Positions 3,041 through 20,038 of a DNA stretch of 24,465 bases are shown in pieces (position 1 is the stretch's first letter; each line of letters opens with the position of its first letter). The DNA is from a virus. A program made the position numbers and the translations under genes. The stretch lies in IMG/VR virus record IMGVR_UViG_3300013088_000196, positions 1 to 24,465 of that record. The stretch is one strand, 5' to 3'. The notes below the pieces were generated by a model. That model saw only the letters and a list, made by a program, of their open reading frames with translations, did no database searches and had not been told where the DNA came from.

Positions 3041-3450
3041 ATCGCCACCGCCCTGTATCTTGCCGGCAGATGATGTCCAGGAATGTCCTCGTCATACATC
3101 ATCGGTCCTACGCCCGTCTCTTCTATGATCATGACCTTGACCCCTATTGTCGTATCTGAAAGCGGCTGCCTGTGCAGCAATGCCCTCACCTGCGCGTAGC
3201 ATGTCATCACGTCGTCGGCGGTCCACTTATCCGATGTAAACCATAAGTCCACCTGCAGGGCCATGTCCACCATTGCTATCACGTCTTTTCGCGCCTGTCC
3301 GGGAAGCAAAAATAGTGATATCGCCGGGAACTTTGGATTGACTATCGAACTGATATGCGAGGTATAGACCCGGTCTTCTACGTATTCTTTGATAATGCTG
3401 TCTGCCTTGAGCACGTTCCTGATTTTTTCAAAAACTTTGGCTTCGACCAT
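3037..3450 (-). CDS. Tail terminator-like protein
   Basis: A 137-residue protein in the position and size range of tail terminator/tail completion proteins (DUF3168-like group) that cap the growing tail tube. Visible features are an N-terminal helix (KVFEKIRNVLKADSIIKEYV), beta strands ISLFLLPGQ and ALQVDLWFTSD, a helix DDVMTCYAQVRALLHRQP, and a C-terminal strand region. That mixed alpha-beta layout fits the family, but no single motif proves it. The start overlaps the previous stop by one base (TAATG), and its own stop overlaps the next gene as ATGA. Confidence 0.65.
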   Translation of the reverse strand: MVEAKVFEKIRNVLKADSIIKEYVEDRVYTSHISSIVNPKFPAISLFLLPGQARKDVIAMVDMALQVDLWFTSDKWTADDVMTCYAQVRALLHRQPLSDTTIGVKVMIIEETGVGPMMYDEDIPGHHLPARYRAVAI

Positions 3451-3947
3451 TATCCTACCCCCTTAAATGAAAATACGAAGTCCCTGAGATTGGAATGCAA
3501 TATTTCAGATACCTGTTCGCGTACATTCTCCAGACTCCCGGTCAGCACGTCCCGGGGAATCATCTTGCTCGTGCCATAAATCAAATATGGGGCATACGGC
3601 GCTATTGTCTCGTTGAGCCCCACGTATGCCGAGGCCTTGAGGATACTTCCCGTAATGCTTGCCTCGACTACGCCGCTCTCCTTAGACGAAAGGAGGTTGC
3701 CCCCCTGCGTGTGTATGAGCCAGTACGGATCATGTATCGGTTTGCCTCGGGATCCGTGTCTCGCGGCGTACGGATGATCCATAGCGCGCAATTCCTCCAT
3801 GGTGTGGTCGGAGACGCTGATGTTCTTTCTCACTTCCGAATCCAGGGTGACTCTAGCCTTATTCATAACCTTATTGACATGCTTAAGGAATCCTCCCCCG
3901 AAAGACTTTATATTTCCCGCAACTACGTCCGCGCCTTTTACCGGCAT
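3450..3947 (-). CDS. HK97 gp10-like neck/tail completion protein
   Basis: A 165-residue protein similar in pattern to HK97 gp10 family members, which help complete the tail and join it to the head. The diagnostic stretch is YAPYLIYGTSKMIPRDVLTG, the tyrosine-Gly-Thr-Ser loop before a C-terminal helix. The N-terminal helix (FLKHVNKVMNKARVTLDSEV) and the middle segment DPYWLIHTQGGNLLSSKESG also fit. The ATG at 3947 overlaps the preceding stop (TGATG) and has GGAGG four bases away; an alternative TTG three bases upstream is unlikely. It is followed by the tail terminator with a TAATG junction, the usual neighbour. Confidence 0.85.
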   Translation of the reverse strand: MPVKGADVVAGNIKSFGGGFLKHVNKVMNKARVTLDSEVRKNISVSDHTMEELRAMDHPYAARHGSRGKPIHDPYWLIHTQGGNLLSSKESGVVEASITGSILKASAYVGLNETIAPYAPYLIYGTSKMIPRDVLTGSLENVREQVSEILHSNLRDFVFSFKGVG

Positions 3948-6295
3948 CAAACCTCCATCTTCTGGTGACCGAAACTGTGCTCGTTCAGGTATTTCAACAG
4001 ATCTTGCGCCTCGACCTTGAACGGATGTTGTTCGGGCATACTCTCTAATGTCCTGGCAAGGAATTCCTTTGCGCTCTGTATGTTAAGTGCCGCCATCTGC
4101 GCGTTCGCGTGCCAGAATCTCGGGTTGAGCGCGAGGGTCTTAGTAAAGCATTCGATGGCCTGTGTATTCTTGCCCTCCTGCATCCAGTGCAGCGCCAGGT
4201 TAAAATACGGCCTCGGGTCCTTGCCCTCGGTAATCTCCAGCTGCCGTTCGTTAAGCTTAACGTAATAATCGAACTTTTCCTTGACTCTTTCCTTCTGCCT
4301 CAGGTATCCAAAGTGATGCAGGACGACAGGTGTCATCTCGACTCCGACCTTTCTTCTCATCCGCAACGCCCCGAGTGAATCCTCGATCGTCTCGTGCAGC
4401 AAACCTGTAAAGTAGAACTCCGGGATATTGCGGAAAAGCCTGGCCGCCTGCGTGGATGCGTAGACCGGCTTCTCCCCCATCCCGGTCTTCTTCATATAGT
4501 TTATGACATGAAATATTGCCGCATCGATGTCGTTCTCCGTCAGTCGGTGCAGTTTGCGCAGGTCCTCATAGTCAAACCTCTCGTCGGCGTCCATCATCAG
4601 CAGCCATCTCTGGGTGGCATGGAGTTTCGCGAAATTCCTGGACACGGAGAAATTATCACACCACGGCAGGTCGAGGATCTTCACGGGTGCCGGCGAATAC
4701 TTGGCGAATTCCTCCAGGATATCCTTGGTTTTGTCTTTCGACCCGGTGTCCACTATCACGAACTCATCTATCACCGGGGCGATATTCTCCAGGCACGTCA
4801 GGATACTGTCCTCCTCGTTCTTGACTATCATGATCAGGCTTATCCCATTGTCGGGAACATATTTTTCCAGGGCCACGTTTCTGTCAATGAGATGGGAATA
4901 GTCGTCGTTGCCGATATCGGCCCTGGTCTTAAAATGATCATTGGCCTGGTAGAACTCAAATTTTTTCTGCCTCTGCTCGTGCGTGTCGTATCCCAGATGC
5001 TTGACGCGGATATTGCACCACTTCAAATTTTCCTCCGCCATGAGCGGGGCCGATCCACAATGGTGTCCTTCGGGGTGATCCGACAGGATCGCCTGGCCCT
5101 TCATTAACCTGAAGAACCTGTAATTCGAAAACCGCCCAAAAGTCGAATCGGTCCTCCAGTATTCGTCATCTCCCCGCCTATCCCATATCGTGCGCCAGTT
5201 GCACCAGTAGGCGAAGATCTCCGGGTCCCGCGGTGACATCATCTTCTGTATGCGGGAAATAAATTTATCCTCATAAATCTCATCGTCATCAATCGAAATG
5301 CACCAGTCGGCGTTGCCCTCCGCATGGAGTTGCAGGGCTATCTCCAAAAGCCGGCCGCGCTCGTAATCCTCCTGGAATATGCCGTCGTAAAATTCGACAT
5401 GGACAATCTTGGGGAAAGCCTTCCTCAGTTCCGTCACCGCCACGTCGCGCTTATGCTGAGAATCCGAAAAAGGCGCCCGGCAGAAATGAATCACTATCGA
5501 ATCCGCGAATTTAGAGGTCTGCCGCAGCGAATCCTCCAGCCACCTTCCCCAATTGGTCCGATAGACGGCCACGAGTTTCTTGGGGCGCGGATCGCACCAT
5601 TTATCGAAATATATTCCTCTGTTCTTGTTGCCGTTTTCTATATACTGCTCCTCGGTTTGTGTAGTACGCAAAGTTCCCTGCCCGGCATGATAGATATAGG
5701 TATCGTAGGCTATGGCCATCTTGTATCCCGCCAACTGCATGCGCAGGCACAGGTCATTATCCTCGTAGGCGTTGACGAATCTTTCGTCGAATCCCCCTAT
5801 CTCATCAAGTGTGCTCTTCTTTATGAGCATGCACCATCCGAAAAGCTTTCCGGCATGCGTCCACCTTCCGCGGTTTGCCTGATACCATGCTTCCGGATCC
5901 TGTAAACCCACCATCTGGCGTCCGTTGGAGCAATTCGATACCGGGCCGATCATGGCCAGGTTCTTCAGGGGGATGTTATAAAGATGGGCGCAGAGCCTAT
6001 CCAGCCAATCCTTATTCACCACGACGTCATTATTCAAGAGGCAAACGATCTCTCCCTCCACCAGTTTAATTCCCAAATTATTGGCCTGCGCGAAGGTCTT
6101 ATTTTCGGCAATGCTGATCACCTTGACGTTCTGATGGCTTTTTTTGAGCTCGCTCAGGTATCCGTCCGTCCCATCTGTGCTACCGTTGTCTATAATGATC
6201 AATTCAAAATCCTTGGTATGGGCCAATATGCTCTGGATGCATTTCGCCGTAAGATGTACCTGGTTGTAACATGCCATGACTATTGAGTATTTCAT
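3947..6295 (-). CDS. Three-domain GT2-like glycosyltransferase with TPR-like tail
   Basis: A 782-residue cytoplasmic enzyme. Domain 1 (1-235) is a GT2 glycosyltransferase of rhamnosyltransferase type: YSIVMACYNQ, IIIDNGSTDGT, LLNNDVVV (metal-binding DXD equivalent, 87-94) and NAYEDNDLCLR. Domain 2 (about 241-470) is a second GT-A-like unit with RTNWGRWLEDSL and ISIDDDEIYED (334-343). Domain 3 (about 483-670) is SunS/WaaE-like: ISLIMIVKNEEDSI, FVIVDTGSKDKT and LMMDADERFDYE (566-577). The last 90 residues look like a TPR pair (FNLALHWMQEGKNTQAIECF, TLALNP). ATG 6295 with AAGGAG is preferred to GTG 6328, though the latter gives a GTGA overlap. The stop overlaps the next start (TGATG). Three domains could build a trisaccharide in one enzyme (inference). 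Confidence 0.9.
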   Translation of the reverse strand: MKYSIVMACYNQVHLTAKCIQSILAHTKDFELIIIDNGSTDGTDGYLSELKKSHQNVKVISIAENKTFAQANNLGIKLVEGEIVCLLNNDVVVNKDWLDRLCAHLYNIPLKNLAMIGPVSNCSNGRQMVGLQDPEAWYQANRGRWTHAGKLFGWCMLIKKSTLDEIGGFDERFVNAYEDNDLCLRMQLAGYKMAIAYDTYIYHAGQGTLRTTQTEEQYIENGNKNRGIYFDKWCDPRPKKLVAVYRTNWGRWLEDSLRQTSKFADSIVIHFCRAPFSDSQHKRDVAVTELRKAFPKIVHVEFYDGIFQEDYERGRLLEIALQLHAEGNADWCISIDDDEIYEDKFISRIQKMMSPRDPEIFAYWCNWRTIWDRRGDDEYWRTDSTFGRFSNYRFFRLMKGQAILSDHPEGHHCGSAPLMAEENLKWCNIRVKHLGYDTHEQRQKKFEFYQANDHFKTRADIGNDDYSHLIDRNVALEKYVPDNGISLIMIVKNEEDSILTCLENIAPVIDEFVIVDTGSKDKTKDILEEFAKYSPAPVKILDLPWCDNFSVSRNFAKLHATQRWLLMMDADERFDYEDLRKLHRLTENDIDAAIFHVINYMKKTGMGEKPVYASTQAARLFRNIPEFYFTGLLHETIEDSLGALRMRRKVGVEMTPVVLHHFGYLRQKERVKEKFDYYVKLNERQLEITEGKDPRPYFNLALHWMQEGKNTQAIECFTKTLALNPRFWHANAQMAALNIQSAKEFLARTLESMPEQHPFKVEAQDLLKYLNEHSFGHQKMEV

Positions 6296-6299
6296 GTTT

Positions 6300-6323
6300 C
6301 TCCTTTTCTGCGCCTCTATGGGC
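6300..6323 (-). repeat. Repeated leader sequence, copy 2 (before three-domain GT gene)
   Basis: A 24-base stretch carrying the AAGGAG ribosome binding site for the ATG at 6295. It matches 8533-8555 except for two substitutions and one extra base. Because the shared part extends beyond a ribosome site and encodes the same peptide (PxEAQK) in the same frame, common ancestry of the two gene junctions is more likely than chance. Confidence 0.6.
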
Positions 6324-6324
6324 G

Positions 6325-6927
6325 TCACGTTTTTACCACTTCGGCTTCATAATGATCTGTTGCCCCCGCAAAATCCATGCATGCCTCTACGAAACTCACG
6401 TATCCGTGCGTCAATCCGGCTATGCCCGACACCGCATATATCAGGTCGTTGACCTGGATATCCGGGTAGTCCGGCCCGGCCATGAATTTGTGCCGTGCCA
6501 CATCCAGTTGCCCCGCCGCCATCATCTTCACCACGTTGCTCATCTTCACCGGATAGAACCGCACCGGCACGTTGCTGTAAATGACTTTCTCCTGATTTAT
6601 AGGCTGCCCTGTTTTGGTAACCGCGCGGACTTCTATAAACCCGTTAGATATCCCGGCCACCGTAATCGTTGATATGCTCGTGAAGTCTTTTTCCCCTACG
6701 GTTACGCCGTCCGCCCCGAAGTTAAAAGTCTCGTCCGTAGAGCCAGCCAAGACTACCGTCCCGGTCAGCACCGTGGCCCCGACTACCTCAACCAGGATCC
6801 TGCAGCTCTTGGACGGCTGCCTGTCTACGGCTACCGCCGCTATCGTCGCCGTCTTCTCCACCAGGTTGGCGGTGAATCGTTTCAGGTTCGCCCTGCCGTT
6901 AAGGATAGTTAATAATTCATCTGTCAT
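6325..6927 (-). CDS. Uncharacterised phage protein, beta-rich
   Basis: A 200-residue protein of unknown function. It starts with MTDELLTILNGRANLKRF, followed by beta-rich stretches (RILVEVVGATVLTGTVVLAG, SISTITVAGISNGFIEVRAV) suggesting an immunoglobulin-like or sandwich fold, and a helical C-terminal third containing PDYPDIQVNDLIYAVSGI. There is no signal peptide, membrane segment or catalytic motif. AAGGGG lies six bases before the ATG. Location between a sugar insert and neck genes suggests a virion component, perhaps a neck or decoration protein, but this is only context. The end overlaps a possible GTG (GTGA) upstream of the glycosyltransferase gene. Confidence 0.65.
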   Translation of the reverse strand: MTDELLTILNGRANLKRFTANLVEKTATIAAVAVDRQPSKSCRILVEVVGATVLTGTVVLAGSTDETFNFGADGVTVGEKDFTSISTITVAGISNGFIEVRAVTKTGQPINQEKVIYSNVPVRFYPVKMSNVVKMMAAGQLDVARHKFMAGPDYPDIQVNDLIYAVSGIAGLTHGYVSFVEACMDFAGATDHYEAEVVKT

Positions 6928-6945
6928 AAATTCCCCTTTACATTT

Positions 6946-7060
6946 AGGCCAAAAGGTGCTATATTATATCTGCTTATCGGGAACGGAATTTTTATGCTTA
7001 ACTCGGGCCGTCGTAGGTGCAGAAGCTTTACCGTTTCTGATAAGCCACCGAAAGCGGCCT
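6946..7060 (+). ncRNA. Predicted structured RNA upstream of the HNH gene
   Basis: On the plus strand 6972-6986 and 7031-7045 form a 15-base-pair uninterrupted stem around a 44-base loop. Two of the pairs are G-U, so the helix is complete only in plus-strand RNA; the minus strand would carry two C-A mismatches. Nested outside are GGUG (6955-6958) with CACC (7046-7049) and AGGCC (6946-6950) with GGCCU (7056-7060). Inside the loop GCUU (6996-6999) can pair with AAGC (7023-7026). It ends 20 bases before the HNH start. It could be a leader controlling the endonuclease or a remnant of a mobile intron; I could not find group I core elements. Confidence 0.5.
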
Positions 7061-7079
7061 CTTTAATTGAGAAGATAAT

Positions 7080-7499
7080 ATGCCGAGAGCACAAATAGGA
7101 AAAAATAACCCAATGTTTGGAAAGCACCATTCTGCGGAAACTAAAAATAAAATAAGTCTTAAAGCTAAAGGCAAAAAACTTTCTGAAGAACATAAAAGAA
7201 AAATTGGTCGCAAAGGTTCTAAAAATCCTCATTGGAGAGGCGGCATAATTAAACGTCTGGGCTATATTTTCATTTATCAACCTAATCATCCTTTTTGCAA
7301 TAATCATGGTTATGTTCGTAGAAGCCGCCTGGTAATGGAAAAAATTCTCGGACGTTATCTCAAACCTGAAGAGGTAGTGCACCACATCAATGGTGTTAAG
7401 GATGATGATAGACCGGAAAATTTGCAATTGTTTGAGAATAATAAGGCACATATCCAGTTCCATAAATTTCCTAAAGATAATCTTGGTCAATTTATTTAG
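7080..7499 (+). CDS. Free-standing HNH homing endonuclease with NUMOD3 motifs
   Basis: A 139-residue protein, the only convincing gene on the plus strand. The N-terminus carries a NUMOD3 DNA-binding motif (GKNNPMFGKHHSAETKNKIS, 7-26) and a degenerate second copy (GKKLSEEHKRKIGRKGSKNP). The HNH nuclease core is EEVVHHINGVKDDDRPENLQ (98-117) with His101, His102 and Asn114, then HIQFH (124-128). The DNA is clearly richer in A and T than its surroundings (many AAA lysine codons), a sign of separate acquisition. It lies between two minus-strand genes and interrupts neither, so it appears to occupy an intergenic site. The ribosome site is weak (GAGAAG, five bases before ATG). A structured RNA lies directly upstream. 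Confidence 0.9.
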   Translation: MPRAQIGKNNPMFGKHHSAETKNKISLKAKGKKLSEEHKRKIGRKGSKNPHWRGGIIKRLGYIFIYQPNHPFCNNHGYVRRSRLVMEKILGRYLKPEEVVHHINGVKDDDRPENLQLFENNKAHIQFHKFPKDNLGQFI

Positions 7500-7523
7500 T
7501 TCGCTCATTTCAGTTTTTCTGGA

Positions 7524-8528
7524 TTACTTGGTTAAAATTTTTTTATATATGTCCTGGTAGTCCCGCGACATTCGCTCGGCATCGAAATTTTCCTCGACCC
7601 AACTCTGCGCCAGCGGAACGATCGCGTCGCGGACGTTCACGTCCAAGGCCTTTAATACTCCACGCATAAGCCCGTCAATGCTGTTAGTCTCAAGTATCGC
7701 GAATCCCCCGGCGACCTCCCTGGCCACGTCGTTGTCGTATGTCACCACCACCGCCCCGGCGTGCATCGCCTCGACGAATACCATGCCGAAGCCCTCGGTC
7801 GGAGACGGATACAGGAACACGTTCATCACCTGCAGGTAATTAGCCACGTCGTCCTTGTGCCCGGCCCAGATGACCCCCTTCACAGGAAGCGACTCAGCCA
7901 TCAACTTCAACTTTCCGACGTATCCGTTCAGCCCCGAAGCCTCTGCTCCGACTATCAGGGGCGTAAAATCAAATCCCTGTATTTGTAGGTAGTAGCAGGT
8001 GAGGAGCCACTCTTCTAGGCATTTATCTTTGCCGACTCGACCTAGCCTGCCCACAACAGGGATATTTTCTCTGATGTTCAGTTCCTTCTTGATTTCCTCC
8101 ACGGTCCTCGTGATCTCCAGCTGCGAGAAGTCCACTCCGTTGTGTATGGTGGAACAGTTCTGATTCATCCCGGTCACTGCATCCGTAACCCCTATTCTCT
8201 GGCGCACGAATTCCGCCGGCATAGGCGACCTGATGGGAGAATGTATCGTCTCGATTACGGGAAAAGCCTTGCCCAGGTTAAGCGCCATTGTGCTTATGCC
8301 GCCTCCGGAATGGATGTGAATTGCGTCCATCTCGAAAGATGTCTCTTCTCCTTTGCCCTCCGGGGCGATGATGACAGTAGCTCCGGCGGCCTCCAGTTCC
8401 TTCCTGAAAGGGCCGTCCTTGTACGCGACTACGGTATGCTTATTCGCACCGTCAAATTTAACGATGTTGCATATCATCTTCTCAACACCACCATAGTCTA
8501 ATTGATTCAATTCATGGATTATATTCAT
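7524..8528 (-). CDS. Glycosyltransferase, GT4 type (GT-B fold)
   Basis: A 334-residue retaining glycosyltransferase that probably transfers a sugar from a nucleotide-sugar donor to a growing surface glycan in the cytoplasm. The N-terminus has the family pattern LDYGGVEKM (10-18), with IHNGVDF at 128-134 and VGRLGRVGKDK at 159-169. The donor site motif EGFGMVFVE spans 245-253, the classic E-X7-E pair, followed by AMHAGAVVVTYD. An AAGGAG lies just before the ATG, and the ATG overlaps the methyltransferase stop as ATGA. The protein is slightly shorter than typical GT4 enzymes (350-400), the loss being in the N-terminal half. Base composition resembles neighbouring genes rather than the adjoining endonuclease. 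Confidence 0.9.
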   Translation of the reverse strand: MNIIHELNQLDYGGVEKMICNIVKFDGANKHTVVAYKDGPFRKELEAAGATVIIAPEGKGEETSFEMDAIHIHSGGGISTMALNLGKAFPVIETIHSPIRSPMPAEFVRQRIGVTDAVTGMNQNCSTIHNGVDFSQLEITRTVEEIKKELNIRENIPVVGRLGRVGKDKCLEEWLLTCYYLQIQGFDFTPLIVGAEASGLNGYVGKLKLMAESLPVKGVIWAGHKDDVANYLQVMNVFLYPSPTEGFGMVFVEAMHAGAVVVTYDNDVAREVAGGFAILETNSIDGLMRGVLKALDVNVRDAIVPLAQSWVEENFDAERMSRDYQDIYKKILTK

Positions 8529-9058
8529 ACTGCTCCTTTCTGGGCCTCTTTGGGCCTCTTCCTGAATTCCAAAACCACTATCATTTTTATCAATTCCTCC
8601 GTTGCGCCATGGTCGTGCTCAATCAATGTGGCATCTATTTTCCACTTATGGCTGTCGCATCCGAGCCAATATTCCCCGATAGGAAGCGAAACTATTATTC
8701 TGCCTTTTGATACCCGGAACATTTCCGACAACCCTATGCCCGGGTTGTCCAGATGCTCAAGAATCTCCCCGCCCACCACCAGGTCGAACGCATTATCCGG
8801 AAAAGGAAGCTCGTTGACATCAGCCTTGACGGCGTCTATGCCGAATATATCCTTGGCCTTGGCGATCATATTCGGGTCATTGTCTATGCTCGTGACCTGA
8901 AATCCCGCCTCTAGGAGCGCCTTGGAGAGAAACCCCTCGTTGCATCCGCATTCCAGGACCGTAAACGCCCCCTTGGCGCGCTTGACTATTTCCTGGATGC
9001 GCACGCGAGTGCAGACAACCGTGTACCAGTAATGCTCGCGCCACGATTTTAACTGCAT
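8525..9058 (-). CDS. SAM-dependent methyltransferase (Methyltransf_11-like)
   Basis: A 177-residue class I methyltransferase. Motif I is VLECGCNEG (34-42), strand 2 VTSIDNDP (Asp59), then AVKADVNELPFPDNAFDLVV and GGEILEHL (96-103), the usual UbiE/Methyltransf_11 run, and FRVSKGRIIVSLPIGEY. The ATG at 9058 is chosen over one 36 bases upstream because AAGGA stands six bases before it and the start then couples to the end of the previous gene. It ends in an ATGA overlap with the GT4 gene, so the products are probably made in similar amounts. The two adjacent methyltransferases belong to different subfamilies and are not a recent duplication. The substrate is probably a sugar or lipid-linked sugar. 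Confidence 0.85.
   Translation of the reverse strand: MQLKSWREHYWYTVVCTRVRIQEIVKRAKGAFTVLECGCNEGFLSKALLEAGFQVTSIDNDPNMIAKAKDIFGIDAVKADVNELPFPDNAFDLVVGGEILEHLDNPGIGLSEMFRVSKGRIIVSLPIGEYWLGCDSHKWKIDATLIEHDHGATEELIKMIVVLEFRKRPKEAQKGAV
8533..8555 (-). repeat. Repeated leader sequence, copy 1 (before GT4 gene)
   Basis: This 23-base stretch carries the ribosome binding site of the GT4 gene and the last codons of the methyltransferase. It is nearly identical to 6300-6323 in front of the three-domain glycosyltransferase gene (two substitutions and one single-base indel). Read in the same frame both encode Pro-(Lys/Ile)-Glu-Ala-Gln-Lys. The copy here also contains a tandem 10-base repeat (TGGGCCTCTT twice on the plus strand, 8541-8560). 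Confidence 0.6.
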
Positions 9059-9630
9059 GCTCCATCCTTTATTACAATACCAAATCCTGCCCATCCGTGT
9101 ACCGGTAGTTCGAATTTTTCTCCCTGTGGTTTGAAGTTTTCCCAGAATACTTTCATCTCCGGCAGTAAAGAAATATCATCGAACATAAGAATTCCGCCCT
9201 CCTTGATATAAGGCAAATAAAGTTCATATTCCTGCTTGGGTTTTATCCCATCGTGATATGTATCGCTGAAAAAGACATCGATGCTTTTTTCGGCAATGTT
9301 TAGCAGTTTCAGGCTATCCTGATGGAAGTATTCCACGTTCGGCCTTCTGGATATATCCAGAACCCTCTGGATGCAATCCACCGTTATGACGCAGCCTTCG
9401 GGATAACCTTCCGCGAGACATGCCGCGGATATCCCCGTGTGCGTGCCGAGTTCCACACTTAAGGAAGGCTTGAGTTCCTTGGTCAGCAGATAGAGAAACC
9501 TATAGTAATGCGCAGCCGTGCCTGGGGACCTGAGTGATGCGTCTTCTTCCCGGCTCACTAGCGCTTCCAATTCCACCGGGAGCAACTTATTAGATTCTAT
9601 CGCAATCCTCTCTATGTCTTTTCTAGTCAC
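9049..9630 (-). CDS. SAM-dependent methyltransferase (Methyltransf_24-like)
   Basis: A 193-residue class I methyltransferase. Motif I is VELGTHTGIS (59-68), strand 2 ends in ITVDC, and later elements are VFFSDTYHDG (the Asp-Thr-Tyr-His metal-site-like motif) and GGILMFDDIS. These fit the family of metal-dependent O-methyltransferases acting on sugars and antibiotics. The GTG at 9630 is preferred to one at 9636 because AGGGG lies five bases before it; either gives nearly the same protein. It overlaps the connector gene by eight bases and the next methyltransferase by ten. Clustering with a GT4 enzyme suggests glycan methylation (inference). Confidence 0.82.
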   Translation of the reverse strand: MTRKDIERIAIESNKLLPVELEALVSREEDASLRSPGTAAHYYRFLYLLTKELKPSLSVELGTHTGISAACLAEGYPEGCVITVDCIQRVLDISRRPNVEYFHQDSLKLLNIAEKSIDVFFSDTYHDGIKPKQEYELYLPYIKEGGILMFDDISLLPEMKVFWENFKPQGEKFELPVHGWAGFGIVIKDGACS

Positions 9631-10324
9631 TTTCACCCCTCAGGTATTTGCTCGCTAGTAATTCTCGATATGAAAAATCGGTAAAGAATTGCTCTGCAAT
9701 CGCCTCAGCCGGCACGTTCTTTGCCATGTCCTCGTAAACTTTTGCCGTCTCTCTGCATTCCTTGGCTATAGCCGTCAGGTCTTCGGAATAGTTTCCGGCG
9801 GCTTTCTTCTTAGCCAGGAGTGCCTTCGATGCGGCGATGGCGTAAAGCGCCAGGGCAGCGGTAGAAAAAAGGTCGTTGCTTTTAAGTGACAAATACGCGT
9901 TGATCTTGGTATCGGATAGAATAAAACTGGTTGCATCGCAATCATTAATGAGTGTCCTAACTTTTCCCAGGTTGGTGCTGGTATCGAAGGAAAAGTCCGT
10001 CCCCCCCGAAACGGTTGTTTGCCATACTATGCAAGTATTAGTTTTAGTAATTTCCGATGCCGTAGAATTGGGGGTGAAGTACCATTTATCATATATCGTC
10101 TTGGCCGAAGCGATGGCGGTCGCCACAACGTGATATTTGCCTGTGCTATCCTTGACTATGCTCGCCCCAGTAAAAGTCTCAATGACCGTCGTCCCGTCAC
10201 TGTCCAGGATTTCCACTTTCGATATGGCATAAGGGTCAAAGTAGTCCGAAGTCGAACTATACTGGAACTTACTTCTTAGAATTATCGTATTATTTATTAC
10301 CGCGCTTTCCCTCTCTACTGACAT
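9623..10324 (-). CDS. Head-tail connector protein with N-terminal beta domain
   Basis: A 233-residue protein. Residues 1-105 look like an immunoglobulin-like beta domain (KVEILDSDGTTVIETF, YHVVATAI, YDKWYFTP). Residues about 120-233 are helical and fit gp6-like head-tail connectors that ring the portal after packaging: KVRTLINDCDATSFILSDTK, then FSTAALALYAIAASKALLAK and EAIAEQFFTDFSYREL. AAGGAG lies five bases before the ATG. The gene stands where a connector is expected, after capsid and before neck and tail genes, but is split from the neck genes by a sugar/methylation insert and an endonuclease. No signal peptide is present. Confidence 0.72.
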   Translation of the reverse strand: MSVERESAVINNTIILRSKFQYSSTSDYFDPYAISKVEILDSDGTTVIETFTGASIVKDSTGKYHVVATAIASAKTIYDKWYFTPNSTASEITKTNTCIVWQTTVSGGTDFSFDTSTNLGKVRTLINDCDATSFILSDTKINAYLSLKSNDLFSTAALALYAIAASKALLAKKKAAGNYSEDLTAIAKECRETAKVYEDMAKNVPAEAIAEQFFTDFSYRELLASKYLRGESD

Positions 10325-10333
10325 GGCTTCTCC

Positions 10334-12136
10334 TTATGGCCCTACGTCGTACGGCGTAGGCATCTCGCTTAATTTCTTTCCGGTAGTATTGGCTCCAATA
10401 TGATTACTCAGGGTTTCATTCCATACGCCATTTACTATCTGCTGAACGGTTAGGCCACCACCGCCGGCCTCTGATACCTTAGCATCAAGATAATTTCCGA
10501 AAGTCCCCGGAGTAGTAAACCCTGATTGTGTAGTATTCCAAAAATCCGCAATGCCGGCAGTCGATAAAGTAAAATTAGCCTTGTCGGTCAACGCGCGCGC
10601 GGCCACGGACCAGACGCCGCTATAATCCGATAGCGTCCTGTTTGATGTTGCCCAGATAGATAAGGCGGTGATATCGTTCAAGCTGTCAAGCGTAGTTTTT
10701 GTGCCTGATATTGAATATCCGGACTTATCCAAGACAACCGTGACGTTACCGAACGTGACCGCGTTTTGATTTGCAGCCAGAGAATATCCCGACTTATCGT
10801 TATTAGTCGTTATCGTTACGCCGTTAGTCACGCTGCCTACAGAACCGCTGATATTTCCCGTCAAATTGAACGATTGCGCGGAAGTTAACTGCCTCGTGAC
10901 AACACTCCAAATATCTGCAGCCAGAATATCATTGAGCCCGGTTATGCCTGTGCCTTTGGCAAGGACGATATTCGTGCCGGCGGTTAATAGCCTGGTGCCT
11001 ACATTCCATATATCAGCTGCAGAATGATTACTCCTTGAAGTTATATTCGCATTGAGATTATTTCCTACGATATACCCGGCCGTCCCTGCGCCATAGGCCC
11101 CGGGAATAGCGGTTGACCACGGATCCCCTGCTGCGCCGGCGCCTTTAAGAAGCGTCCCGGCCAGGTTGGCTTCGCTGTATGCGGACAGGTTTTTATCCCA
11201 GATTGCATTAGTAACTATAATCACGGCGCCGGTGGACATAACATTTACCGTGGCGTTTACATCATTGCCGTTAAAATTAAGGCCATCCGTCTTGGCTTTT
11301 ATCGCCGTGGCTGTGATATTAGCGTTAGAGGCGTTGATATTTATAGCTGAAAGCGCCACATCAATAAGTGCCGCCTTAGCGCCTGTCCAATTAAGAGCAA
11401 AAGCGTTGACAGTGTTGTTGATGTAAGACACGTTACCGATGACCGTTCCAAGCAAGGTTAAGGTATTGGTGATGTTGGCATTGTCGGGTAAAACATATCC
11501 AGTCAAGTTGCCGATTGTAACGCCGCCCTGATTAAAAGTGAGATTGACCTTTTGGCTTGGGTCGAACGTAGAGCGCGAACTTATGGCTGCGTCCAGATAC
11601 CCTGCCTTGGTGGCTGACCAGGTTGTATTTTGCGCGGTCTCGGTATTGTTGACGTTGGTGACGGTGGCGTTAGCGTTGGTAATTGTAGTATTCGCGTTAG
11701 TGACCGTCGTATTGATACTGGTAACGGTAGAGTTAACCGTACTGACGTTTCCGTTTAAGGCAGTTAATAAAGTCTTAGGTGCTGTGTTGATAATAAAATA
11801 CTGCTCCAGGCAACCTGTGCCATTATAATAAATGCCGATTCTATCATGGTTCATCTCTGACTGGTTGAGGGGGAAATTATAGATTCCGCTCGCATCGATG
11901 ATGGTGCAGTTGGAAGCCGCTGCCGCAAAAGAACTGAACGCCGCATCGGCATCGCTTGAATGGATATAAAAAACGGTATTGTTGGCACTCTTATAGTAAA
12001 AACTTGTATTCGTGGCATTGATAAGCGGACACGTAATATTGGTTGCCACATTCTTATCTCTGGAAAATTCCATTCCCAATGCATAAAAAGGAAATGCCAA
12101 TAAAATAACGAGTACCAGAAAAGTAAGTTTCCTCAT
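10334..12136 (-). CDS. Exported Asn/Thr-rich fibre-like protein with coiled-coil stalk
   Basis: A 600-residue protein with a signal peptide (MRKL, hydrophobic TFLVLVILLAFPFYA, cleavage near residue 20). Residues about 123-167 have hydrophobic residues spaced 3-4-3-4 (VTSINTTVTNANTTITNANA), a trimeric coiled-coil stalk with near-repeat DNA of 21-base period. From about residue 370 a motif W-x4-R-x-LT recurs (DIWNVGTRLLT, DIWSVVTRQLT, SIWATSNRTLS, GVWSVAARALT). The C-terminus has GTFGNYLDAKVSEAGGGG and NGVWNETLSNH, elements common in environmental phage fibre proteins. I counted by eye about 34 Asn-X-Ser/Thr triplets. GGAGG lies four bases before the ATG, which is adjacent to the previous stop. 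It may be an adhesin or fibre and a candidate glycosylation target (inference). Confidence 0.75.
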   Translation of the reverse strand: MRKLTFLVLVILLAFPFYALGMEFSRDKNVATNITCPLINATNTSFYYKSANNTVFYIHSSDADAAFSSFAAAASNCTIIDASGIYNFPLNQSEMNHDRIGIYYNGTGCLEQYFIINTAPKTLLTALNGNVSTVNSTVTSINTTVTNANTTITNANATVTNVNNTETAQNTTWSATKAGYLDAAISSRSTFDPSQKVNLTFNQGGVTIGNLTGYVLPDNANITNTLTLLGTVIGNVSYINNTVNAFALNWTGAKAALIDVALSAININASNANITATAIKAKTDGLNFNGNDVNATVNVMSTGAVIIVTNAIWDKNLSAYSEANLAGTLLKGAGAAGDPWSTAIPGAYGAGTAGYIVGNNLNANITSRSNHSAADIWNVGTRLLTAGTNIVLAKGTGITGLNDILAADIWSVVTRQLTSAQSFNLTGNISGSVGSVTNGVTITTNNDKSGYSLAANQNAVTFGNVTVVLDKSGYSISGTKTTLDSLNDITALSIWATSNRTLSDYSGVWSVAARALTDKANFTLSTAGIADFWNTTQSGFTTPGTFGNYLDAKVSEAGGGGLTVQQIVNGVWNETLSNHIGANTTGKKLSEMPTPYDVGP

Positions 12137-14143
12137 CTATCCTCCAATACCTGCGCCAATTCTTGCATTACGTCCACCCTGTCCACCACCCCCCGTCGTC
12201 GCCGTATTATCATCTTGGTCAACGCCGATGTTAGTCTTATAATTCCTCGTTAAATCATAATAGACGGTAATCGTGATATTATCTATTTTCGTTACCGTAT
12301 TATTACTGCTTGTTTCCTGACAGGAAAATTCTACCCCAAAGTTAGAGGCATTTATATCGGACGGCGTAAGGGTATTTCCCCAAATTGTAGTCGTGTCACC
12401 AAAAATATAAATTACATCACCTATCGTAAGTTTTGTAGTAGTTCCCTTGTTATCGCCACTTGCCGAACCAGTTTTGATTAGTTTTACATAAGGGATTTGC
12501 ACTCTTGCGGCGGTGGCTGCCTTTGCCTCAATCTTAACCACCACACCTTTTATTGTCGCATCGGTAGGAATACTAAATCCGAAATTCGTGCATACTCCGG
12601 TATAGGTATAATTATTGTTTATCGTGGCAGTGGCGTAGACATTATCCGAAGCTTTGATTTCCTTAGGATTAGTCCAGTCTACATCATCATAAGGAGAGGT
12701 TGCGCTACTCGTTGCTACTGTGCCGGAGAAACTCGCTCCAGCTCCTGGCCGCCATAGCCAGTTATTAGGAAATCCATTAGCTATTGCGCCACTTCCCAAC
12801 TGCACTGTAAAATCTCCATTCGTTGGGTCTACGAATAAAGGATCTGTAGTTATATCGTGAGCTCCCGCTACGGCATTATTTAAATCAGAAGTGCCGTTAC
12901 CGTAGTAAAGATTGTAGTCAGAAACCGAATGATACTGCCCAGACTGCGAAGACAGTCCGTATCTTCCGTTTCCTACAAACATACTATTCCAAACGGGTAA
13001 GCATCCAAGTCCGGAACCCCTAGAGGAGTAAAAGTTGTAACCGTCTGACAAATAACCTGTGTTATTGTAGGATATAGAGGAGTAAAATAAAAGTTGGTCT
13101 CTTGAAGCTACTCCGTGACTTCCATTTGACTCTACTATGCACGAGTAACAACTTACTCCAGCCGCATCACCTATTGGATATAACCCACCAGCGGAATTAT
13201 CGTGAATATAACAATAATAATAAGCTTTAACTGCTGTTGTTCCCCATGTTGCATCTCCTTTAGACGACATATTACTTATTTCACAATTCCAAAGTATCAT
13301 ATCGTCACCATCAAGCCCACTAACGCTATCGGATAGTTTACTATTCCATAACACAAAACCCTGAAGAGTCGTAGCTGACCTGTATAATACAGTCCCAGAG
13401 CTACGAGTAAGGACGACATTGTAAACAACATTACCTATCACATTAGCCGCTACAGTCAAAATATTTTTAGTATCTCCTGCCCCATCTGTATCGCTATCAC
13501 CGTCAAATCTTGCTCTATCATCACCTGTAGCTTCTGTTCGTGCCGTTCCCGATATATACCCTATCCAATTTATTATGGCAGACCCGTTAGTCCCAGAGAT
13601 TGTTAGATTCAAAACATAAGTATTAGCCCCTACTTTAACGTAAGTACCTCCTGCGATATAGATAGTGTTACCTGCGACGACTTTGGTTGAGATGGTATTT
13701 GGATGGTCAACCGCACCGCCCATATTTCCTACACCGGATGAACCTGCCCCTGTAGTCGCTGGCGCGGTATCAACGGTAATTGAGGTTGAGGAAGTCCTTG
13801 CGGTAACTTGATACCAACCTGCGGTAAAGTTTGTTCCGCTTGCGATATAGATAATATTCCCGACTATCCCTGCGGCGAAGGTGTCTGCGCCAGAACAAGT
13901 AACCGTGGTTGAGGATTGTGCAGCGGTTAAAGTAGTGTAACTTTCTTGAGGGTCTTGTTGATTAGAATAATCTACACCACTACCAGCAGTTCCCAAGACA
14001 GAATCGTATCCTCCGCCGTTCGTGGCAGAACCTGTCGTCCTTACTTCCCAAACTGTCGTTGCAGCAATAGCTGCAAATGCCTTATTTGTTAAGCCGCAAG
14101 ATAGCCAGATTATAGCTATCAGCGTCGTAAGTCGTTTCCACAT
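12137..14143 (-). CDS. Exported right-handed beta-helix protein (spike- or adhesin-like)
   Basis: A 668-residue protein with a signal peptide (MWKRL, hydrophobic TTLIAIIWLSCGL, cleavage near AFA at residue 24). The middle, about 130-460, alternates short strands and turns typical of a parallel beta-helix, ending in ITTDPLFVDPTNGDFTVQ (near residue 435), a hallmark of such proteins. About 485-640 is a separate beta-sandwich-like domain, followed by a Gly-rich end. Beta-helix proteins in phages are often tailspikes that bind or cut host polysaccharide; no catalytic residues can be assigned here. GGAGG lies nine bases before the ATG, inside the end of the preceding gene. A signal peptide on a spike-type protein is unexpected for a virion component assembled in the cytoplasm. 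Confidence 0.8.
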   Translation of the reverse strand: MWKRLTTLIAIIWLSCGLTNKAFAAIAATTVWEVRTTGSATNGGGYDSVLGTAGSGVDYSNQQDPQESYTTLTAAQSSTTVTCSGADTFAAGIVGNIIYIASGTNFTAGWYQVTARTSSTSITVDTAPATTGAGSSGVGNMGGAVDHPNTISTKVVAGNTIYIAGGTYVKVGANTYVLNLTISGTNGSAIINWIGYISGTARTEATGDDRARFDGDSDTDGAGDTKNILTVAANVIGNVVYNVVLTRSSGTVLYRSATTLQGFVLWNSKLSDSVSGLDGDDMILWNCEISNMSSKGDATWGTTAVKAYYYCYIHDNSAGGLYPIGDAAGVSCYSCIVESNGSHGVASRDQLLFYSSISYNNTGYLSDGYNFYSSRGSGLGCLPVWNSMFVGNGRYGLSSQSGQYHSVSDYNLYYGNGTSDLNNAVAGAHDITTDPLFVDPTNGDFTVQLGSGAIANGFPNNWLWRPGAGASFSGTVATSSATSPYDDVDWTNPKEIKASDNVYATATINNNYTYTGVCTNFGFSIPTDATIKGVVVKIEAKAATAARVQIPYVKLIKTGSASGDNKGTTTKLTIGDVIYIFGDTTTIWGNTLTPSDINASNFGVEFSCQETSSNNTVTKIDNITITVYYDLTRNYKTNIGVDQDDNTATTGGGGQGGRNARIGAGIGG

Positions 14144-17988: not shown

Positions 17989-18618
17989 CTATTTTCCCTC
18001 CCCTTGTGCCCTACGCAGTTTATATTTCATGAACGGGTCCGCGGATTCTATGTCCACGATCTTCAGACCTGCCTCTGCTATCATGTCCTCCCACTCCCAT
18101 TCCTCAATGTCCGGACAATCAAAAGCCCCTGGGCTTATAGGCACTATTTCCACCAGGACGGCTATGCCTTCGGGTTTGAGCACTCTATGGAGCTCTTTAA
18201 GGGCCCTGCGCTTGGTGTCGTTAGGCATATGCATGAAGACTGCCATCGAATACGCGAAGTCCGCATACGCTTCCGAAAATCCTAGCATATCCCCGAGATC
18301 GGAATTGCAGAACTCAACGTTGGGTATGCCCAGGGAGGAAAGCGAAGACTGGGCCGTTTCCAAATTGCTCACGCTAAAATCTATGCCGATAACTTTCTTG
18401 AATTGAAGCGCGGCCTGGGGGATATATCGTCCTCCTCCGCACCCTAGATCCAGGCAAATGTCCCGGCCGGGATTGGCCAGGATTTCCGGAAAAACATGGG
18501 CCACCCATAGAGCCATACCCCTAGGGTCCCGCTCGTTTATCGAATTAATGCTTTCGCCTTCCGGACGCGTAAGGTCCCAGTATGCCCTGGGGTCAGCTTC
18601 GTATTTCTGTTTGTCCAT
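17989..18618 (-). CDS. SAM-dependent methyltransferase (class I)
   Basis: A 209-residue protein with a class I Rossmann-type methyltransferase core. Motif I is LDLGCGGG (56-63), the strand-2 acidic residue is in VIGIDFS (Asp80), followed by EFCNSDLGDM and the motif IV-like YADFAYSMAVFMHM, then LHRVLKPEGIAVLVEI. This is the Methyltransf_11/25 pattern used on small molecules, lipids, sugars and sometimes proteins. No target-recognition domain for DNA is visible, so DNA modification is unlikely. Translational overlap with the Wzy-like gene and one-base spacing before the protease gene place it within the head operon. The most sensible guess is methylation of a glycan or lipid-linked sugar handled by the neighbouring membrane protein; the substrate cannot be read from the sequence. 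Confidence 0.88.
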   Translation of the reverse strand: MDKQKYEADPRAYWDLTRPEGESINSINERDPRGMALWVAHVFPEILANPGRDICLDLGCGGGRYIPQAALQFKKVIGIDFSVSNLETAQSSLSSLGIPNVEFCNSDLGDMLGFSEAYADFAYSMAVFMHMPNDTKRRALKELHRVLKPEGIAVLVEIVPISPGAFDCPDIEEWEWEDMIAEAGLKIVDIESADPFMKYKLRRAQGEGK

Positions 18619-19621
18619 TGCTCACTTTTCCCTTCTGTAACTTTAATAAAAAACACAATATTATTCCCATGATCAGATACCACATCCTTGGTGTTTCTAC
18701 CGGATATTCAATCGCGCAGACAAGCAGGAAACTTGCCATCGGTGCGATATCTCCTTGTGGTCTTATCTTCTGTAATTGCTTAGCCGCGAACCAATACCAC
18801 GCCACCGCTAAAACTCCGACCCCGAAGATGAACTGCAGATAACTGCTACCCACAACTCCTAACTCCGGAAATGGCCGCTCGCCTATTCCCAGGCCGATAA
18901 GCGGTTGCTTGAAGAATATCTTCAGTGCCGGGGCCCAGGCAAGATTAAAACGATACGCTAAAGAATCATAGATATGCTGCCTGATCAAAAATAGTCCCAA
19001 AATTAACGCCATGATATAAAGAAAACGCGCCTTGTCCTTCATGCGCATAAATAGCATCACCGCTATCGGAATGAATATCGTGAATTGCTTTGTGATTATC
19101 CCGAGTGCGAAACTTATCGGCACGAATAACAGCGGACAGAATGATGTTACTAATGCGAAATAGGTGATCATCCTGGGTTGGTTGCCTATCAATGCCCCTT
19201 CCTGCCCGGCGAAGGGATGCACATTCCAGACCGGGTCAAAGCCTCTCTTTTGAATAATGAAGAATACGAGGTTTAATGCCGCGGCCGCCAGGATATAATT
19301 TCTGATGCCCTTCGTCTCATTGTAACGGGTATATACGATTGTGAATCCCAGCACCGCCAGAAAGAGATTAAACGAGGTATGCAGCCCCACTGGAGAAAAA
19401 GTGTGAATGAAGACATTAGCGAAAACCAGTCCAAGAAATGAAATCATAATCAAGACCAGTTCTTGGGGGATCTCCCTACGCGGCTTATCGAAAAGCGACG
19501 CCATAAATAGCGCGATTATCCCCGTCCTGAAAAATGTGATGTCGAACATATCCATGTTGATGTTTGTCCCCACACATATCGGAGATAAAAATAAAAGCGC
19601 TTGAAAAATCCTAGTGACCAT
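18593..19621 (-). CDS. Polytopic membrane protein of the Wzy/WaaL (O-antigen polymerase/ligase) type
   Basis: A 342-residue integral inner-membrane protein with roughly nine to ten hydrophobic segments. Residues 240-269 (PLIGLGIG, then SSYLQFIFGVG) match the arrangement of Wzy_C family proteins, where a hP-GxG motif is followed by a HNxYLQ-like motif and G-rich helix. Here the His normally seen before Asn/Ser is absent (VVGSSYLQ), so catalytic competence is uncertain. The family joins O-antigen or other polysaccharide repeat units at the periplasmic face. A GAGGAG lies about eleven bases before the ATG, a rather long spacing. The next gene, a methyltransferase, overlaps its end by 26 bases, so the two are probably translated together. 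Such a gene between the portal and protease genes of a phage is unusual. Serotype conversion or blocking of superinfection are possible roles (inference). Confidence 0.72.
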   Translation of the reverse strand: MVTRIFQALLFLSPICVGTNINMDMFDITFFRTGIIALFMASLFDKPRREIPQELVLIMISFLGLVFANVFIHTFSPVGLHTSFNLFLAVLGFTIVYTRYNETKGIRNYILAAAALNLVFFIIQKRGFDPVWNVHPFAGQEGALIGNQPRMITYFALVTSFCPLLFVPISFALGIITKQFTIFIPIAVMLFMRMKDKARFLYIMALILGLFLIRQHIYDSLAYRFNLAWAPALKIFFKQPLIGLGIGERPFPELGVVGSSYLQFIFGVGVLAVAWYWFAAKQLQKIRPQGDIAPMASFLLVCAIEYPVETPRMWYLIMGIILCFLLKLQKGKVSNGQTEIRS

Positions 19622-19654: not shown

Positions 19655-20038
19655 CTAATAATCAAAAACCACTGTAGTTATCGAATTAGCATTTGTCGCC
19701 AGCACCCGTATACCATTTTCAAATGGCGCATTAGGATTAATAGGAGCACTATTGGTATTGTTGGCCGATATACCCAACTCGAATTCCAGGTCGGTAATTG
19801 GATAACGTGGATCCACCGTGTTGTAAATACCCACAATATCGCCCGCCGTGGATGAGAACATGCTCGCCGATAACAACCTGCAGGGACCGATAAACAACTG
19901 TCCGCTTCCTATTATGCTGTATATCTTCGTAGGATTACCGCCCTGCGCATAATTAGTCTTTAAAGAATCAATACTAGTTGCGTGCGCATAGGCTGTAAAA
20001 AATAATATGAACGCTAAAAATAACCATACTTTCTTCAT
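19655..20038 (-). CDS. Small exported protein, possibly beta-sandwich decoration type
   Basis: A 127-residue protein with a textbook signal peptide: MKK, a hydrophobic core WLFLAFILFFTAY, then an AHA cleavage site near residue 20. The mature part is about 107 residues, polar and predicted beta-rich, ending in FENGIRVLATNANSITTVVF. That pattern resembles small jelly-roll-like virion proteins met in environmental phages, but I cannot name a family. A strong AAGGAGG lies seven bases before the ATG. It sits between the portal and a Wzy-like gene, a place where decoration or accessory genes often occur. The export signal is hard to reconcile with a capsid role and suggests action in the periplasm or at the cell surface. 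Confidence 0.7.
   Translation of the reverse strand: MKKVWLFLAFILFFTAYAHATSIDSLKTNYAQGGNPTKIYSIIGSGQLFIGPCRLLSASMFSSTAGDIVGIYNTVDPRYPITDLEFELGISANNTNSAPINPNAPFENGIRVLATNANSITTVVFDY

Follow-up and report, generated by a model that had tools for sequence, protein, structure and literature searches.

A glycosyltransferase cassette embedded in the head-tail genes of a phage family that includes an Omnitrophota prophage: a putative virion glycosylation system

Sugar enzymes interleaved with late phage genes

The 24,465-base IMG/VR virus record IMGVR_UViG_3300013088_000196 (hereafter the window, i.e., the whole stretch of DNA analyzed, whose positions serve as coordinates) carries tailed-phage late genes on the minus strand: a TerS-like protein, TerL, portal, protease, decoration protein, a Mu gpT-like major capsid protein (MCP), adaptor, tail-completion protein, Zn-ribbon protein, major tail protein (MTP) and tail assembly chaperone. 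Its MCP shares ∼31% identity at most with those of the best isolate phages among the matches listed. A preliminary description of this DNA had pointed to sugar enzymes interleaved with the structural genes, and a GT4 glycosyltransferase (GT), a protein with three GT2 domains, methyltransferases and a Wzy-like gene are indeed present in three blocks amid head and tail genes, with gene overlaps and matches to profiles.

The core of this set, which we call the cassette, consists of two glycosyltransferases. GT2x (3947..6328, minus strand; 793 aa; the GTG start is uncertain and an ATG lies at codon 13) combines three GT2 domains with tetratricopeptide repeats (TPR) (PF00535, 3e-49; PF13704, 1e-15; TPR), and is found in block (c) between hyp200 (6325..6927, minus strand), a probable head-tail stopper as read from gene position, and the neck1/tail-completion protein (3450..3950, minus strand; phrog_5). 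GT4 (7524..8528, minus strand; PF00534, 1e-17), similar to BshA-type and other GT4 enzymes, ends block (b), which opens with the head-tail adaptor-like protein (9623..10324, minus strand) and continues with two methyltransferases, the class I enzyme MT24 (9049..9636, minus strand; PF13578, 4e-12) and the S-adenosylmethionine (SAM) methyltransferase MT11 (8525..9094, minus strand; PF08241, 1e-17). Block (a) holds, between portal and protease, the small protein hyp127, the Wzy-like gene and a further SAM methyltransferase, MTb (17989..18618, minus strand; PF08241, 5e-20). Genes overlap by 14 nt (adaptor/MT24), 4 nt (MT11/GT4, stopper/GT2x and GT2x/neck1) or 26 nt (Wzy-like/MTb), and the MT24/MT11 overlap is short if MT11 starts at Met13, its likely start and the one used by its homologues. 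These start/stop overlaps couple block (b) to the adaptor, and block (c) to the stopper and neck1. Blocks (b) and (c) are set apart by the stopper gene and by an opposite-strand NUMOD3-HNH homing endonuclease gene (7080-7499, plus strand), which interrupts the run between GT4 and the stopper and is missing from this site in the relatives mapped. A minus-strand open reading frame at 6924-7508 was rejected as a gene, the plus strand encoding the HNH endonuclease there.

Conservation of the cassette across a phage family

We assembled a clade of related contigs from IMG/VR by searches with the MCP, GT2x and the portal, the MCPs being 36-86% identical to that of the window. Wherever a clade contig extends into the cassette region, GT4 comes after the adaptor and a variable set of tailoring genes, and the stopper and neck1 flank GT2x. 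Fifteen lineages carry both enzymes, the window and an Omnitrophota prophage (see below) included, near-identical contigs being counted once and the contigs themselves being fragments. Two contigs found by MCP or portal alone (L011 and L200) show GT4 at the expected place and then end, and those that have no GT4 (L195, L015 and others) stop before the position of the cassette. The neighbors are equally constant: the C-terminal part of the adaptor, which has only weak PHROG matches, is kept after the MCP in all relatives, the stopper (C-terminal domain conserved, N-terminal part variable) always stands between GT4 and GT2x, and neck1 directly follows GT2x in all of them. The co-conservation with structural genes that the preliminary description had proposed to look for is thus found, and relatives having lost the sugar genes with the rest unchanged were looked for in the family and not found. 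As the gene order recurs in many independent contigs, chance can be excluded.

Outside the clade, none of 57 loci with an MCP match and at least 5 kb downstream holds the GT4 and GT2x pair. The sole GT2 match among them (L267) is a 995-aa GT2-TPR-methyltransferase-GT4 fusion directly after the MCP, and a contig whose MCP belongs to another PHROG family (L073) encodes, downstream of protease, MCP and adaptor, a 29% identical GT2x homologue, so that head genes have acquired enzymes of these types on more than one occasion. Among 50,697 isolate phage records, no match covers 80% of GT2x, and no member of the family turned up among the isolates. Two contigs show further peculiarities. The portal reading frame of L016 (3830-7105, 1091 aa) has an in-frame insert of ∼320 aa with a LAGLIDADG domain, probably an intein. 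On the 95-kb contig G002, which holds L062, an apparent second terminase/portal/head set (L190) lies on the other strand, as judged by eye; the contig would then hold two phages or be a chimeric assembly.

The sole full-length match among bacterial genomes is the 71.5-kb contig JACQXK010000085.1 of a Candidatus Omnitrophota metagenome-assembled genome binned from groundwater, in which chromosomal genes (hisG, bamA, lpxD, lpxC and others) precede a tyrosine integrase, an S24-type repressor and phage genes in the order of the window (MCP 74% and GT2x 66% identical to those of the window). This integrated prophage with integrase and repressor beside host genes indicates that at least this member is temperate. 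Its host is a diderm with lipid A (lpx) genes and Wzy_C enzymes of its own. By kinship with the prophage, the host of the window would presumably belong to the same phylum, where a portal or full-length GT2x was detected in 1 of 384 genomes.

A constrained core and exchangeable tailoring genes

Pairwise distances between lineages were compared by Mantel-type tests (6-15 lineages). Those of GT4 and GT2x closely follow the distances of the portal (r 0.95 and 0.94, respectively), and also those of the MCP (0.75 and 0.83) and the MTP (0.76 and 0.91), the reference correlation between MCP and portal being 0.90. For the window compared with its nearest relative, the ratio of nonsynonymous to synonymous substitution rates (dN/dS) is 0.09 for GT4 and 0.04 for GT2x, and 0.07 and 0.03 for MCP and portal, values that are meaningful to an order of magnitude only, dS being near saturation. 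The distances of MT24 are only loosely tied (0.38 with MCP, ∼0 with MTP). The glycosyltransferases are therefore the core of the cassette, and MT24 at least is exchanged between lineages.

The same region in other lineages holds a PF04230 pyruvyl transferase, a pair of MptE-like and radical SAM/SPASM proteins, or an epimerase. The MptE-like/radical SAM pair recurs near the adaptor, GT4 or GT2x (L012, 11131-12779; L064, 4366-5986; L067, 5922-7593; L069, 8392-10000; L071, 4993-6586; L002, 14988-17326), the L002 copy being placed between MCP and adaptor and carrying a fused methyltransferase domain. A search of the PDB with the MptE-like proteins gave no glycosyltransferase relative, so that a parallel with the Maf flagellin enzymes is at most tentative. 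Nucleotide-sugar epimerase/dehydratase genes, located upstream of the terminase or portal or inside the cassette (L002, 200-1189; L195, 3431-4495; L196, 433-1437; L011, 12133-13188), suggest that these phages help provide their own sugar donor. Some cassettes carry two MT24-type genes, in tandem in L003 (6785-7698) and split around GT4 and the stopper in L069 (5633-6214, 7815-8399). MT11 is 75% identical in L002 and 68% in the Omnitrophota prophage. A counterpart of MTb occupies the portal-protease slot of L002 (54%) and L074 (50%), both devoid of the Wzy-like gene.

GT2x resembles protein glycosyltransferases in its C-terminal part

All three GT2 domains of GT2x have catalytic motifs that are invariant among 11 homologues. 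Domain 1 is a PF00535 GT2 domain, and domain 3 is PF13704-like and followed by TPR. The middle domain has no family match of its own in NCBIfam; it displays an invariant DxDE motif across the homologues and appears GT-A-like in the AlphaFold2 model, which is confident (pLDDT 83.6). A Foldseek search with the whole model gave K4 chondroitin polymerase and heparosan synthase as top matches, SunS and ThuS being aligned as well. For domain 3 and the TPR (∼residues 496-764), the best sequence match is GmaR (E 4e-25), then ThuS and SunS. The layout of GmaR and SunS, a GT-A GT2 domain with a DxD-type motif and then a TPR or helical domain, is found here too, and domain 3 may function like SunS or GmaR while standing outside the SunS family. 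None of GT2x, GT4 and the methyltransferases has transmembrane (TM) segments. In the structural regions scanned, in the window and its relatives, the only multi-TM proteins are the tape measure and the Wzy-like protein, and no flippase, GtrA-like protein or lipid-carrier transferase was seen.

A separate Wzy-like unit with a small exported protein

The Wzy/O-ligase-like multi-TM protein (18593..19621, minus strand) lies outside the conserved core, between portal and protease, and directly downstream of hyp127 (19655..20038, minus strand), a small accessory protein with a Sec signal-peptide-like start. It has no PF04932 match and no convincing Pfam match, a PDB profile search was empty, and its AlphaFold2 model (pLDDT 51) is too poor for a fold search; compared by hhalign with the Wzy_C proteins of the host, it aligns over the Wzy_C core with a probability of 94% (E 1e-7). 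The two-gene unit recurs across different phages (window, 19655-18593; L008, 8192-9691; L270, 48-1529; L272, 7559-8632), the small exported protein ending in DY. The prophage has a Wzy homologue (27%) downstream of a different small protein with a signal-peptide-like start, also in the portal-protease region. This accessory gene is patchy, most family members having GT4 and GT2x without it, and forms a separate mobile pair with the small exported protein.

The arrangement, in which the gene of a membrane protein with a putative Wzy_C-like core comes right behind that of a small exported protein, recalls the PglL/PilO-type O-oligosaccharyltransferases, 21 of 31 PglL-type ligases adjoining pilin genes (PMC3643930). 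The Wzy block differs in being phage-borne, in its partner, which is not pilin-like, and in the missing PF04932 match. We take the likeness to a ligase and acceptor pair as a lead only, in which hyp127 would be a possible acceptor of the Wzy-like enzyme.

Sec signal-peptide-like starts, odd for virion proteins, also occur on several fibre-like or uncharacterized late-region proteins, namely, besides hyp127 (19655-20038), hyp668 (12137-14143) and hyp600 (10334-12136) in the window, and L002 11037-11786 and 17392-18621, L187 8068-9867 and 10133-11350, and L008 9675-12806 in relatives.

A putative virion glycosylation cassette

We propose, with a probability of roughly two in three, that the cassette serves to make an O- (or S-) linked oligosaccharide on a virion protein of the phage itself, in the cytoplasm and during particle assembly. 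A virion-linked glycan is favored since GT4 and GT2x are invariant, syntenic and co-inherited with the structural genes, since domain 3 with its TPR groups with protein and peptide glycosyltransferases, and since no export machinery lies alongside. Retention of the GT genes with structural genes across a phage lineage is what would be expected if the virion were the target. On the model of GmaR with flagellin and SunS with sublancin, the C-terminal GT2 domain of GT2x, using the TPR as an acceptor clamp, would start the glycan by attaching a sugar to a Ser/Thr (or Cys) of one head or head-tail protein. The chain would then be lengthened by the two remaining GT2 domains and GT4, and the tailoring enzymes encoded in the slot before GT4 (methyltransferases in the window; pyruvyl transferase, MptE-like and radical SAM proteins, or epimerase elsewhere) would cap or diversify it. 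The overlaps with adaptor, stopper and neck genes would ensure late expression in step with the virion proteins. Candidate acceptors are the adaptor, stopper and neck proteins, or the abundant MCP, decoration protein and MTP, none of which is singled out from sequence. We infer the acceptor, the sugars, the order of steps and the location of the glycan on virions.

Several points weigh against this proposal. Both the glycan and its acceptor are predictions. Domain 3 scores 61.6 bits against the SunS family TIGR04195, below the curated cut-off of 350, the top rank of GmaR and SunS owes partly to the small sample of solved structures, and GT2 enzymes with lipid acceptors share the same broad fold family. 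We found no characterized example of a protein-glycosyltransferase domain fused to two more GT2 domains. Finally, part of the clade was recovered via GT2x itself; the searches based on MCP and portal are a fairer test, and they gave no exceptions.

Among other explanations, the one we weighed most, and still regard as unlikely, is a remodeling of the envelope of the host, in lysogens or at a late stage of infection (O-antigen-type conversion, superinfection exclusion), in which GT4 and GT2x would make a lipid-linked sugar, exported by the host and polymerized or ligated by the Wzy-like protein. The diderm host with its lpx genes and Wzy_C enzymes, the temperate lifestyle, the Wzy-like gene in both window and prophage, and the listing of related GT domains as moron genes in PHROGs would all fit. 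Yet most members with GT4 and GT2x have no Wzy-like gene, the flippase, GtrA-like and lipid-carrier transferase genes are not seen in the structural regions, and the glycosyltransferases are embedded in, and overlap, late genes and, in contrast to typical conversion genes, are invariant and inherited together with those of the virion. The Gtr serotype conversion systems (GtrA/GtrB/Gtr) likewise include phage genes with GT2 domains, and there is a weak PHROG match to GtrB-like families, but the window has no GtrA-like flippase, GT2x has no TM segments, and the gene order is bound to that of virion genes. The preference of the preliminary description for virion modification over ordinary lysogenic conversion therefore holds for GT4 and GT2x, invariant, syntenic, co-inherited and protein-GT-like as they are, and does not extend to the sugar enzymes taken together as a single system, given the patchy Wzy-like gene and the exchanged MT24. 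The Wzy block alone may represent a late switch of the host envelope. Also unlikely is a scheme of two routes, in which a cytoplasmic GmaR/SunS-like route decorates every virion with a lineage-specific, exchangeably tailored oligosaccharide next to a mobile pair of membrane O-ligase (Wzy/PglL-like) and hyp127 acceptor, comparable to pilin and PglL.

Targets of the cassette among late proteins that are exported or not part of the virion, such as the fibre-like ones encoded nearby, are improbable: the signal-peptide-like starts of hyp127, hyp668, hyp600 and similar proteins in several relatives speak for them, but these candidates are variable, and many relatives with GT4 and GT2x have nothing between MCP and adaptor. 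Other phages have glycosyltransferases that act on modified bases in DNA (Pyle et al. 2024, as cited in PMC12619734), and a hypermodification against restriction could be envisioned; this seems very improbable, given that the prophage-bearing genome and the 95-kb relative both lack a PF00303-type thymidylate synthase/hydroxymethylase, that the cassette stands beside head-tail genes rather than DNA metabolism, and that domain 3 with TPR is protein-GT-like. A Tet_JBP search, whose control was silent throughout, is uninformative. Least of all do we expect passenger (moron) genes that are unrelated to the virion and persist by chance or for the benefit of the lysogen. Being patchy or exchanged, MT24, MTb and the Wzy-like gene have that appearance, but the presence of GT4 and GT2x in all family contigs reaching the place, their purifying selection and their tracking of structural genes already make this unlikely for the two enzymes.

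Comparison with known systems and implications

The closest precedent for virion glycosylation comes from the mycobacteriophages Che8 and Rita, in which phage glycosyltransferases are reported to place O-glycans on the C-termini of capsid and tail tube proteins (Freeman et al. 2023, as cited in PMC11256854 and PMC12619734). Phage-encoded enzymes and the kind of acceptor proposed are common to both, the glycan having been shown in the mycobacteriophages, according to these sources, whereas the window is known from its genes. The related mycobacteriophage Maravista has its GT genes close to the genome end (PMC11256854), whereas those of the window are fixed between adaptor and neck genes. The family described here also differs by its phage lineage, its diderm host, its exchangeable tailoring genes and its GmaR/SunS-like enzyme with three GT2 domains and TPR.

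GmaR, the Listeria flagellin O-GlcNAc (N-acetylglucosamine) transferase, has a GT domain placing GlcNAc on flagellin, followed by TPR (PMC9638930). GT2x shares the order of GT2 and TPR, and the target of GmaR is a self-assembling filament protein, but GT2x has two extra GT2 domains in front and lacks the antirepressor domain. Domain 3 and the helical region are also similar, in sequence and fold, to the S-glycosyltransferases SunS (SPbeta prophage) and ThuS of Bacillus, although GT2x falls far under the SunS cut-off and no gene for a bacteriocin-like peptide was seen adjoining it. With K4 chondroitin polymerase and heparosan synthase, GT2x has in common several GT-A domains per chain, but the whole-length TM-score is low (0.2-0.3) at 13-16% identity, and there is no sign of a polymer.

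Glycosylated phage particles have so far been shown mainly for mycobacteriophages. What is new here are sugar enzymes fixed in the virion gene order of a whole phage family tied to an uncultured diderm phylum, with tailoring genes that can be swapped, and the enzyme with three GT2 domains and TPR offers a concrete, testable prediction. If our proposal is true, virion glycosylation would be older and wider than isolates suggest, and, given a host binned from groundwater, its benefit would probably lie in particle stability, in adsorption, or in evading bacterial rather than antibody recognition.

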